Shown here: positions 5,656 to 42,467 of the stretch, piece by piece
Numbering within the stretch: position 1 is the stretch's first letter
How the letters are laid out: each line of letters starts with the position of its first letter
Assembly: GCA_944386635.1 (NCBI GenBank)
Contig: CALXBV010000090.1
Location: 1-47,177, forward strand
Source: an uncultured Clostridia bacterium
GTDB taxonomy: Bacteria > Bacillota > Clostridia > TANB77 > CAG-465
DNA: 47,177 bases
Direction of reading: 5' to 3'
Notes under the pieces: model-generated
What the model was told of the DNA's origin: nothing
What the model saw: only the letters and a program-made list of their open reading frames with translations
Database searches by the model: none
Made by a program: the position numbers and the translations under genes

Positions 5656-7344
5656 CTAACTCTTTTTCAAATTTTTAATTACCTTACATGGATTTCCGAC
5701 AGCTACAACATTATCTGGTATATCTTTAGTAACCACACTTCCTGCACCAATAACCGAATTCTCCCCAATACTTACACCCGGTAAAATAGTGCATCCACCG
5801 CCTATCCATACATTTTTGCCAATAATAATTGGTTTACCATATTCTTTTCCTGCTATTCTATCTTTATACTCTATAGGATGACATGCTGTATAAATTCCTG
5901 TATTTGGTCCTATAAGGGTATTATTTCCTATTTCTATTCTACATACATCAAGTAATGTACAGTTATAATTTAACATTACATTTTTACCAATATAAATATT
6001 AAATCCATAATCGCAATAAAAAGGCGGTTTGATACAAAAATTACCATTTATATTAAGAAGATTTTTTAAAATACTATTTTGTATATCTGTCTCATGATAA
6101 CAACTATTATTAAATTTAAATAGCTCTTCTGCAGCCTTGTCTCTTAAAGTTATCAATTCTGGATCTATAGGTTCATATATTTTCCCATTTTTCATATTTT
6201 CTAATTCACTCATTATATCCTCATAATTTTTATCTACTATATATTTTTCATATAAACTATAGTTTTCTGCTATATTTTTATCTACATCTATCCAATATAC
6301 TTGCTCCCTTTCTTTTAATTCATCGTGAAAATATTCTCTTTCAAGCTCACCACCAAGTGAGATTATAGTCTTAGCTGAAGCCAAATTTGATTTCTCACAA
6401 TCTAACATTACTTTATCAAGATTATATTTTTTACATTCACATAAGCCTAAATATAAATTTATTTTATTATATCCTTTTCCTCTTTGAGTTGGTCTTATAG
6501 AATAACCTATATTTCCATTACGTTTTCTTAATTTTTCATTTAATGCAAGTCTTATATTAATTGTACCTACTAGCATATTATCATTTTCTCGTATTAAAAA
6601 CATAGTTTTAGTTGGTACTTTTTGCTCTGTTACTTTTCTTTTTAAATCATTATCTATTTTTATTAGCCATTCTTCATAAGTAGAATCTTTTAAATATCTA
6701 TCCAATCCACCAACACCATTTATATTTGAATTATATTCATAAAATTCTTCTATATATTCTTCTGCTTGCTCTTTATACTCTATAGTGGGATCAATTAATC
6801 TAAATTTAAAATCTATACCTTCCTTTAAAATATAATAGACATAAACAAGTTTATTATTAAACATTACCTTCCTATCTAATTTACCTTCATTTTTTAATAT
6901 AACTTTTTGCGATGCAATGTTATCACTATAACATGATACCATAATACAATTTATTCCTAAATTATATAGGTACTCTTTTGCCATACTTAATATTTGAGTA
7001 GCGTATCCTTTCTTTCTTTGAGTTGGTCTTACACTATAACCTACATGTCCACCATATCTTCTAGTAATCTCATTACCAAGTTCCAATCTTAAGTCTACAA
7101 TTCCTATAATATAATCATCTGATTTTCTTACTACAAAAAATGTATGTGATAGGACGCATCCATCCTTTAATGTTTCTTTATTCCAATTGTCATTTACCCT
7201 ATTTAGCCAATCTTCATATTCCAATTCATCTAAAAGAGCTGAACCATCAATTACTTTTTCATTATATTTAAAATGTTCATCTCTATATTCTAAACCTTTC
7301 TTCTTAAGTTCCATAGTAGGTCTTACAAAAACAATTTCTTCCAT
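5656..7344 (-). CDS. three-domain acetyltransferase: GNAT-GNAT-hexapeptide (maltose O-acetyltransferase-like)
   Basis: A 562-residue fusion. Residues about 1-172 and 178-352 are two related GNAT domains, each with an acetyl-CoA loop of the form GYSVRPTQRKKGY or GYSIRPTQRGKGY, so they look like a tandem duplication. Residues about 377-562 are a Mac/NodL-type maltose O-acetyltransferase: the helical lead around RDKAAEELFKFN, then left-handed beta-helix hexapeptides (IGKNV, IGNNTLIGPN, IGKNVWIGGG, IGENSVIGAGSVV) with the TACHP catalytic histidine. The ATG at 7344 sits 5-6 bases after AGGTGA; the GTG nine bases upstream is part of that site. Substrates unknown. The two GNATs resemble those acting on small molecules or antibiotics, but I cannot be specific. 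Confidence 0.85.
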   Translation of the reverse strand: MEEIVFVRPTMELKKKGLEYRDEHFKYNEKVIDGSALLDELEYEDWLNRVNDNWNKETLKDGCVLSHTFFVVRKSDDYIIGIVDLRLELGNEITRRYGGHVGYSVRPTQRKKGYATQILSMAKEYLYNLGINCIMVSCYSDNIASQKVILKNEGKLDRKVMFNNKLVYVYYILKEGIDFKFRLIDPTIEYKEQAEEYIEEFYEYNSNINGVGGLDRYLKDSTYEEWLIKIDNDLKRKVTEQKVPTKTMFLIRENDNMLVGTINIRLALNEKLRKRNGNIGYSIRPTQRGKGYNKINLYLGLCECKKYNLDKVMLDCEKSNLASAKTIISLGGELEREYFHDELKEREQVYWIDVDKNIAENYSLYEKYIVDKNYEDIMSELENMKNGKIYEPIDPELITLRDKAAEELFKFNNSCYHETDIQNSILKNLLNINGNFCIKPPFYCDYGFNIYIGKNVMLNYNCTLLDVCRIEIGNNTLIGPNTGIYTACHPIEYKDRIAGKEYGKPIIIGKNVWIGGGCTILPGVSIGENSVIGAGSVVTKDIPDNVVAVGNPCKVIKNLKKS

Positions 7345-7380
7345 TAAAATCACCTAAAATTATTTTACCATAAATACACG

Positions 7381-7417
7381 TAAAAAAATAGTTAAAAAGC
7401 TCAGCTTTTTAACTATT
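7381..7417 (-). terminator. strong intrinsic terminator after the GT51 gene
   Basis: A perfect 14-bp stem (7387-7400 with 7404-7417) and 3-base loop, followed on the minus strand by a T tract. It abuts the stop codon of the glycosyltransferase gene. Confidence 0.88.
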
Positions 7418-8113
7418 CTACATTCCATTTATTATATCATCTGCTTCCTCTTGAGTTAAATAACCATATTCAATCATTTTATTTATAACTTGTTTTTGTC
7501 TTTGTTTTGCCAAATCTGGATTTTCAGTTGGTGCATATACAGATGGTGCGTTAGGAATTCCTGCAAGCATTATACACTCACTATCTGTAAGTTCGTTTGG
7601 TAATTTATTAAAATATCCTAAAGATGCCTCTTTTACTGTATAATACCCATTTCCAAAATAACTTGTATTTAAATATAATTCTAATATCTCATCTTTATCA
7701 CACTGTTTTTCAACTTCAAATGCCATAAACACTTCTGCAATTTTTCTTTCTATTTTTTTCTCTTGAGTAAAATACATGTTTTTACATAATTGTTGTGTAA
7801 GAGTACTTCCACCTTCCACAAAACTCATTGCTTTTATATCATTTATTATAGCTCGTCCAATAGATATAATGTCTATTGCACCATGCGAATAAAATCTATG
7901 ATCTTCTACTGCAATTACAGCATTTATATACATTTGTGGTAATTCGGATAACTTAGTATAATTTTCTTTAGACTTTATTTCTTCTATTTTTTCTTGTAAT
8001 GGAACTTCTTCTATTGCCTCTTTATACATATTATATCCACTTTTTACATATGGATATGCTATAAATCCCACAATAGCAATTACAAGAAATAATATTACAA
8101 AAAACTTTCTCAT
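7418..8113 (-). CDS. stand-alone peptidoglycan glycosyltransferase (GT51)
   Basis: A 231-residue membrane-anchored GT51 enzyme that would polymerise lipid II into glycan strands outside the membrane. One N-terminal transmembrane segment (about residues 3-22) precedes the catalytic motifs: AVIAVEDHRFYSHGAID with Glu70, GGSTLTQQLCKN, ERKIAEVFMAFEVE and the YLNTSYFGNGYY motif. There is no transpeptidase domain, so it is monofunctional, unlike class A penicillin-binding proteins. A good AGGAG site precedes the ATG. It is last in a run from EamA and the ABC-F gene, separated from the GNAT gene by 87 bases that include a TATAAT box, so it may also have its own promoter. Confidence 0.88.
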   Translation of the reverse strand: MRKFFVILFLVIAIVGFIAYPYVKSGYNMYKEAIEEVPLQEKIEEIKSKENYTKLSELPQMYINAVIAVEDHRFYSHGAIDIISIGRAIINDIKAMSFVEGGSTLTQQLCKNMYFTQEKKIERKIAEVFMAFEVEKQCDKDEILELYLNTSYFGNGYYTVKEASLGYFNKLPNELTDSECIMLAGIPNAPSVYAPTENPDLAKQRQKQVINKMIEYGYLTQEEADDIINGM

Positions 8114-41184: not shown

Positions 41185-41217
41185 AAAAAAATAAGGAGAA
41201 TTTTTATTTCTCCTTAT
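41185..41217 (-). terminator. intrinsic terminator after the ATP-cone gene
   Basis: A perfect 10-bp stem (41191-41200 with 41208-41217) and minus-strand TTTTTTG tail, ten bases past the stop. Confidence 0.85.
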
Positions 41218-41226
41218 AAATATTTA

Positions 41227-41592
41227 TTATATTTTTTCTGCAAACATAATTTTATTACTAGATTCTGTAAATTTTTTACTTTCGACATCAAAAACTGACT
41301 CATCAGTAATATCTGAATTCATTACTATTGTTTTTTCATATCTATAATCAACATACCTTTTAGCCAATTCATATTTTTGAAGTTCTATTAATTTTTGCTC
41401 AACTATGTCTTGTATGTCCTCAACTAATATTCTATTTCTATCCATATCTTCTATATATTTCATTATTGATTTTATATTATCTCTATTAGCTCTTTCTTCT
41501 AACTCTACCTCTTTATTTGCATTTTGTATCGTAGTAGCTATTTTTTCCCTATCATAATCTACGACTCTTCCATCTCTTTTTATTACTTTCAT
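41227..41592 (-). CDS. stand-alone ATP-cone domain protein, NrdD N-terminus-like
   Basis: A 121-residue protein made of one ATP-cone: KVIKRDGRVVDYDREKIATTIQNA, then VEDIQDIVEQKLIE and LAKRYVDYRYEKTIV, the standard nucleotide-binding cone of class III ribonucleotide reductase (NrdD) and NrdR. The tail DITDESVFDVESKKFTESSNK resembles the linker between the cone and the catalytic barrel of NrdD, then it stops. No zinc ribbon, so it is not NrdR, and a terminator follows, so it is not a simple reading-frame break in a larger gene here. Likely a nucleotide-sensing regulator or a decayed reductase copy. The ATG at 41592 follows AGAGGGGGAATTGTA. Promoter evidence suggests control by the divergent Crp/Fnr protein. 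Confidence 0.75.
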   Translation of the reverse strand: MKVIKRDGRVVDYDREKIATTIQNANKEVELEERANRDNIKSIMKYIEDMDRNRILVEDIQDIVEQKLIELQKYELAKRYVDYRYEKTIVMNSDITDESVFDVESKKFTESSNKIMFAEKI

Positions 41593-41626
41593 TACAATTC
41601 CCCCTCTTGATTTTAAACACATCTAT

Positions 41627-41668
41627 ATTATACAATCATTTTTCTAAAATTCTGTTGCAATTGCAACA
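41627..41668 (-). promoter_or_regulatory. ATP-cone gene promoter with a 16-bp palindrome at about -41
   Basis: Minus strand TATAAT (41627-41632) has no good -35 box 16-18 bases upstream, but a perfect palindrome TGTTGCAATTGCAACA (41653-41668) is centred about 40-41 bases before the expected transcription start, the class II activator position of Crp/Fnr regulators. The encoded Crp/Fnr protein starts 143 bases away on the other strand. Confidence 0.62.
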
Positions 41669-41810
41669 AAAAAATAAAAAAGATTTTTGTCGATTCGTAT
41701 AACTAACTATTTGCAAGGAATTTAAAATTTATATCATTTACATTACAAAAATGTAGTATTTATTTTTTGAAAATTTTATAGTATAATGTAGAAAAATTGA
41801 GGTGATACCT

Positions 41811-42440
41811 TTGTATGACGATTTTAATGTATCTGAGTTTACACAACAATTACAAAATAATTGTTTAAAAATTCAAGTAAAAAAAATTAAAAAGAATGAA
41901 ATAATAACAAATTATATAAATGATAAAAATCAGATTTGTATCTTAAAAAAAGGTATTGCTGATCTTATACGATATGATAAAAATGGAAATAAAACTATAC
42001 TGGAGACATTTAAGCAAAATGATATATTTGGTGAAATTTTCTTTCCAATAAGAATAAATAATGAGTTATTTACTATTGCAAAAGAAAATTGTGAAATTTT
42101 ATATTTTACATATGATGATATATCAGTAAAGTGTACACAAAATTGTAAATTTCATGAATCACTAAATAATAACTTATTAAAATTATTTTTATATAAAATA
42201 AGGAAACAAAATTTAAGAGTAGAACTGCTTACTAAAAGAACTATTAGAGAAAAACTTGAATCTTACTTTTCCTTTCTAGAAACAAACAATGCTAAAAAAA
42301 GTTTTACAATTCCATTTTCATATACTGACCTCGCTGATTATCTTAGCATTGATAGAAGTGCTATGATGAGAGAATTAAAATCATTACAACAAGAAGGGCT
42401 AATTTCAAGAGATGGAAATAACATTACATTAAAGTATTAA
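41811..42440 (+). CDS. Crp/Fnr family transcriptional regulator
   Basis: A 209-residue Crp/Fnr protein: an N-terminal cyclic-nucleotide-binding-like beta-roll (IKKNEIITNYINDKNQICILKKGIA, then GEIFF), the long dimer helix (about residues 110-138) and a C-terminal winged helix SYTDLADYLSIDRSAMMRELKSLQQEGLI, the recognition helix being DRSAMMREL. The N-terminal cysteine cluster of FNR is absent, so an iron-sulphur oxygen sensor is not indicated, though two cysteines occur at CTQNC. The TTG at 41811 follows GAGGTGAT at good spacing; a GTG inside that site is discarded. A TATAAT at 41782 lies upstream with no clear -35. Confidence 0.85.
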   Translation: MYDDFNVSEFTQQLQNNCLKIQVKKIKKNEIITNYINDKNQICILKKGIADLIRYDKNGNKTILETFKQNDIFGEIFFPIRINNELFTIAKENCEILYFTYDDISVKCTQNCKFHESLNNNLLKLFLYKIRKQNLRVELLTKRTIREKLESYFSFLETNNAKKSFTIPFSYTDLADYLSIDRSAMMRELKSLQQEGLISRDGNNITLKY

Positions 42441-42467
42441 AAGTGCTTGGATACCAAGCACTTTTAA
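42437..42467. terminator. bidirectional terminator between the Crp/Fnr and SseB-like genes
   Basis: A perfect 14-bp stem (42437-42450 with 42454-42467), 3-base loop, shared by the two convergent stop codons. Confidence 0.82.

Follow-up and report, generated by a model that had tools for sequence, protein, structure and literature searches.

Ribonucleotide reductase (RNR) supplies all DNA precursors, and nrdD encodes the class III enzyme. Fnr in E. coli and Dnr in P. aeruginosa activate nrdDG (PMC5645315), with Fnr at nrdDG also documented elsewhere (PMC12176259), and NrdR is described as a regulator of RNR genes in most bacteria (PMC9110341). Activation of nrdD by Fnr or Dnr is already known; what would be new in the locus described here is a dedicated, linked regulator with a motif of its own. 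Our search of the open-licence literature found no published description of a dedicated regulator/nrdD pair, and PADLOC gave no match.

The window, i.e., the whole stretch of 47,177 nucleotides from an uncultured Clostridia bacterium that we analyzed, contains a gene encoding a Crp/Fnr-superfamily regulator and, divergent from it, a gene encoding an ATP-cone protein. The sequence-only reading of this stretch had proposed that the regulator activates the ATP-cone gene from a perfect palindrome in the class II activator position, at a promoter with no -35 box. We verified in the sequence both the perfect 16-bp palindrome, TGTTGCAATTGCAACA (GTTGC-N4-GCAAC; 41653-41668, unstranded), and the minus-strand TATAAT at 41627-41632, the -10 box of the ATP-cone gene. 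With the start taken 7-8 nt past this -10 box, i.e., a predicted transcription start at 41619-41620 on the minus strand, the palindrome is centred at -40.5 to -41.5, and the hexamer found at 17-bp spacing, ACAGAA, bears out the missing -35 box. A site near -41.5, a -10 box and no -35 box make up the geometry of a class II activator-dependent promoter, and it occurs in the window as well as in 59 of 71 relatives. Perfect 16-bp palindromes are not in themselves rare, the window having five of them, and this one owes its significance to conservation and not to the palindrome as such. The exact 16-mer occurs once in the 1.46-Mb assembly of the window's own genome, where GTTGC-N4-GCAAC occurs twice, compared with no occurrence of a reversed control pattern.

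Absence of the palindrome from relatives having both genes had been named as evidence against this proposal, and we observe that the palindrome is kept in them. An exact GTTGC-N4-GCAAC is present, with a divergent ATP-cone partner, in 25 of the 26 loci with an orthologous regulator (the window included). In a partly overlapping set of 80 loci from gut Clostridia assemblies, 73 have the regulator/ATP-cone pair in divergent layout, and the motif occurs in 71 of these 73 intergenes, with two copies in 42. Toward the ATP-cone gene, the site is followed at exactly 20 bp by a perfect TATAAT in 59 of 71, and every other offset is found at most twice. Comparison of these 59 promoters showed arms that are ~95% identical and a spacer that is ~50% identical, which argues that the 20-bp spacing is held by selection and not by recent descent, and over 10 same-genus intergenes the arms are invariant. 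The class II activator-target layout, i.e., the site, its constant 20-bp interval before TATAAT and the lack of a -35 box, is kept across families. The conservation of the site is far beyond chance. Perfect palindromes of this length do turn up in the window, as its count of five indicates, but arms conserved at exact spacing in ~70 relatives, and invariant within the genus, make it exceedingly improbable that this one is a chance feature of AT-rich DNA and no operator.

The geometry on the two sides of the intergenic region predicts two different effects, class II activation on the ATP-cone side and autorepression on the regulator side. A second copy of the site on the regulator side lies 9 bp from the regulator gene's -10 box in 55 of 55 cases, over its -35 box, with the left half of this copy (TTGCAn) forming the -35 box at a 17-bp spacer. 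This copy is present in most relatives outside the window's genus and is missing in the genus, so no autoregulation is predicted for the window. The place of the second operator is occupied in the genus by a near-invariant 60-bp block upstream of the regulator gene (41728-41787, plus strand), containing an inverted repeat, TACATT-N5-AATGTA (41737-41753), and the regulator gene's -10 box, TATAAT (41782-41787, plus strand; invariant in 10 same-genus genomes); this block may serve as operator for another factor. The sign of regulation could also be the reverse, with the regulator binding the palindrome and repressing the ATP-cone/nrdD promoter, e.g., when nucleotides suffice, and so taking the repressor role of NrdR. 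Genomes bearing the regulator do lack NrdR, and Crp/Fnr proteins can repress, also from a -41 site. We nevertheless consider repression unlikely, since these promoters have no -35 box and hold the fixed class II spacing seen in activator-dependent promoters, and since at the regulator's own gene, where repression is expected, the same site is found in another position, covering the -35 box.

Our preferred reading, which we hold with good confidence, makes the palindrome the operator for the Crp/Fnr-type regulator encoded next to it. This protein would be dedicated to the control of class III RNR, acting by class II activation on nrdD-nrdG in most relatives and on a stub of nrdD in the window. 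A regulator dimer would bind TGTTGC-N4-GCAACA centred near -41 and bring in RNA polymerase at a promoter whose -10 box is good and whose -35 box is missing, and the activated promoter would drive nrdD-nrdG in most relatives, with the second copy, over the regulator's own -35 box, repressing the regulator gene in most of those outside the genus. In the window's species, nrdD would have shrunk to its ATP-cone, and the activated product would be a stand-alone nucleotide-binding domain under selection. Comparison across relatives supports well the predicted activation of the ATP-cone/nrdD promoter by the regulator.

The regulator gene (41811-42440, plus strand) encodes 209 aa, with its start better set at the TTG at 41811, behind the ribosome-binding site TGAGGTGAT (41798-41806), and a hairpin search placed a terminator-like hairpin after it (42437-42467, plus strand). 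Its earlier identification as a Crp/Fnr regulator was upheld by matches to PF00027 (34.5 bits, cut-off 27.5) and PF13545 (36.8 bits, cut-off 27), and its orthologues are divergent from nrdD or the cone. The model of the protein matches CooA, CprK and FNR at Z 14-15, fold matches that fail to separate FNR, CprK, CooA and NtcA. It does not belong to FNR proper (NCBIfam Fnr subfamily, 22.7 bits, cut-off 228), to the cAMP receptors (NCBIfam CRP equivalog, 29.4 bits, cut-off 266) or to NrdR, with no match to TIGR00244 (Zn-ribbon and ATP-cone). Set against HcpR/HcpR2, which control hcp/frdX through GTAAC-N4-GTTAC or a variant of it, its motif differs (GTTGC) and its predicted target is nrdD, and no curated HcpR model is over threshold. 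The recognition helix, DRSAMMRE, does not vary among the orthologues compared (81 of 81), nor do C18, C43, C108, C112 and H115, with C94 invariant in 74, and R182 and S183 of the regulator correspond to CRP positions R180 and E181. Of these positions, Arg180 correlates with base G3, and the Glu181 position with A6 (PMC1274295); the half-site studied here retains G3 and departs from A6, in agreement with R182 and S183 of the regulator. The invariant cysteines and H115 suggest a sensor of redox, Fe-S or NO, and the signal is probably one of these, acting via the cysteines.

In one relative (G035), a Crp/Fnr regulator related to this one adjoins a ferredoxin gene and has the same palindrome (L332:1166-2631), and the palindrome also lies upstream of a RIC (Fe-S repair) gene, 21 bp from a TATAAT (L333:2687-3478). 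The ferredoxin and RIC sites would form an HcpR-like regulon with the GTTGC motif, and this setting, in a relative with the same motif, lends plausibility to redox, Fe-S or NO as the signal. The genomes contain other Crp/Fnr paralogues, some of them beside similar motifs as in G035, and these raise the question of whether a factor other than the adjacent regulator binds the palindrome. We regard this as very unlikely, given that the site tracks orthologues of this regulator across families, that two copies of it lie between many regulator/partner pairs, that it is absent from nrdD promoters in genomes without the regulator, and that half-site and conserved recognition-helix Arg agree (PMC1274295). 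On this evidence, the neighbouring regulator very probably binds at the palindrome.

The partner gene in most loci is a full-length nrdD, usually of 708 aa and often followed by nrdG, and nearly all these genomes have no RNR other than class III (class I/II in 3 of 57). The same promoter precedes unlinked or second nrdD/nrdG genes (G045:C8; G054:C27, at 21 bp), with tandem copies in G017 and G026, and precedes the gene for pyruvate formate-lyase, another glycyl-radical enzyme, in G045. The palindrome had been proposed as a candidate motif for a regulon; in relatives it is found at nrdD/nrdG and, once, at pyruvate formate-lyase, and in the window's own genome the regulon looks like a single promoter. 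A search of that genome with the -10 spacing imposed identified the window site, one site with one mismatch and nothing further. We rejected a broad regulon there, the near-matches on contigs C43, C68, C72 and C81 all being inside coding sequence; targets may have been missed, because the assembly is 77% complete.

The ATP-cone gene of the window (41227-41595, minus strand) encodes a stand-alone protein of 122 aa, an N-terminal nrdD stub, with full nrdD in the same place in relatives. It contains the ATP-cone PF03477 (70 bits) alone and lacks the catalytic NRDD domain PF13597 with its glycyl radical, i.e., it is not an NrdD, and no catalytic remnant is detectable downstream. The stub is probably monocistronic, since an intrinsic-terminator-like hairpin directly follows it (41191-41217, minus strand; 4 such hairpins found, compared with 0.2 expected in shuffles). 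Six genomes of the window's genus have the cone alone at this locus (G000, G005, G007, G012, G015 and G020), and each of these also encodes crp2, a second regulator located next to another full nrdD; five others (G004, G010, G013, G017 and G026) keep a full nrdD at the locus and have no crp2 match. A related C-terminal tail of the xMFAxNI type, not found in full NrdD, ends five of the six stubs, which indicates a single truncation event, and dN/dS of 0.04-0.20 among the six demonstrates purifying selection. These values, together with the lack of a catalytic remnant, indicate that the cone is probably retained as a working protein. A decaying pseudogene was rejected for now on the basis of the same dN/dS and the tail common to the stubs. 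One possible role of the stand-alone cone is to bind nucleotides and influence NrdD in trans; work on NrdR reportedly used an isolated ATP-cone mutant.

The crp2 proteins do not have the conserved cysteines of the regulator. In G000 (C11:4931-5506 and 6012-7841; L299), the region between crp2 and its divergent full nrdD contains an imperfect palindrome, AGGTGCAAGTGCAACT, related to the one studied here. The same genome contains a split second nrdD (C83:50352-52876; L298:2353-4877), in which a catalytic ORF of 748 aa that lacks the glycyl-radical end is followed by a separate 90-aa ORF with the glycyl-radical motif and then by nrdG. Small separate glycyl-radical ORFs are seen throughout the same-genus genomes examined.

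Our survey also showed that the regulator and NrdR do not occur together in the 57 relatives: 29 contain the regulator without NrdR, 20 contain NrdR without a close regulator, 8 contain neither, and none contains both. Across the order (386 genomes), there are 270 regulator matches, 18 true NrdR and ~100 genomes with neither, and the only two overlaps involve weak regulator matches of 25-30% identity. No true NrdR was found in the window's own assembly, and its absence from this species rests on the more complete relatives, because this assembly is 77% complete. Most NrdR-bearing genomes have an NrdR box ~53 bp before nrdD, and none has the regulator's site there; same-genus genomes without NrdR have lost the NrdR box too. 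When placed on an rpoB tree, the regulator/NrdR pattern reflects only 4-5 changes, with one informative independent pair. Replacement of NrdR as many independent events is unsupported by this tree, and replacement is therefore a reasonable hypothesis and not a demonstrated rule, for which the distribution is suggestive. We offer only tentatively, as the less probable side of an even balance, the wider proposal that a cysteine-based Crp/Fnr activator displaced the near-universal repressor NrdR at an essential class III RNR across a large group of gut Clostridia, with the window's lineage keeping the ATP-cone alone, under this activator, as a separate regulatory nucleotide sensor.

If true, a class III-only lineage without NrdR, with nrdD tied to a dedicated Crp/Fnr switch, would illustrate how the essential RNR pathway can pass from control by nucleotide sensing to control by a different signal. 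An exact motif and spacing open to test are supplied by the palindrome, and a stand-alone ATP-cone under selection poses the question of whether the nucleotide-sensing domain of RNR can work in trans.

Compared with Fnr and Dnr at nrdDG, the system in the window is alike in that a Crp/Fnr-family protein would activate class III RNR from an upstream box. Fnr and Dnr, however, are global regulators of anaerobiosis or NO that use TTGAT-type boxes, whereas here a dedicated, divergently linked regulator is paired with GTTGC-N4-GCAAC, and its genomes depend on class III RNR and have no NrdR. Class II CRP-dependent promoters likewise have a site near -41.5, a good -10 box and no -35 box, but their half-site differs, and inspection of the window regulator by eye shows no evident cAMP-binding Arg-Ser pair. 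HcpR/HcpR2, which regulate hcp and frdX in anaerobes, share the divergent layout and the GT..C-N4-G..AC half-site geometry (HcpR2, GTAACnnnnGTTAC), and HcpR2 of C. difficile has Ser in place of Glu181, as does the window regulator (PMC1274295), yet the predicted target here is nrdD/nrdG and not hcp-frdX, and the half-site is GTTGC. Finally, NrdR is also a dedicated regulator of RNR genes and is usually linked to them; it belongs to a different protein family, and the window regulator, unlike NrdR, has no ATP-cone and is predicted to act with the opposite sign, i.e., by activation.
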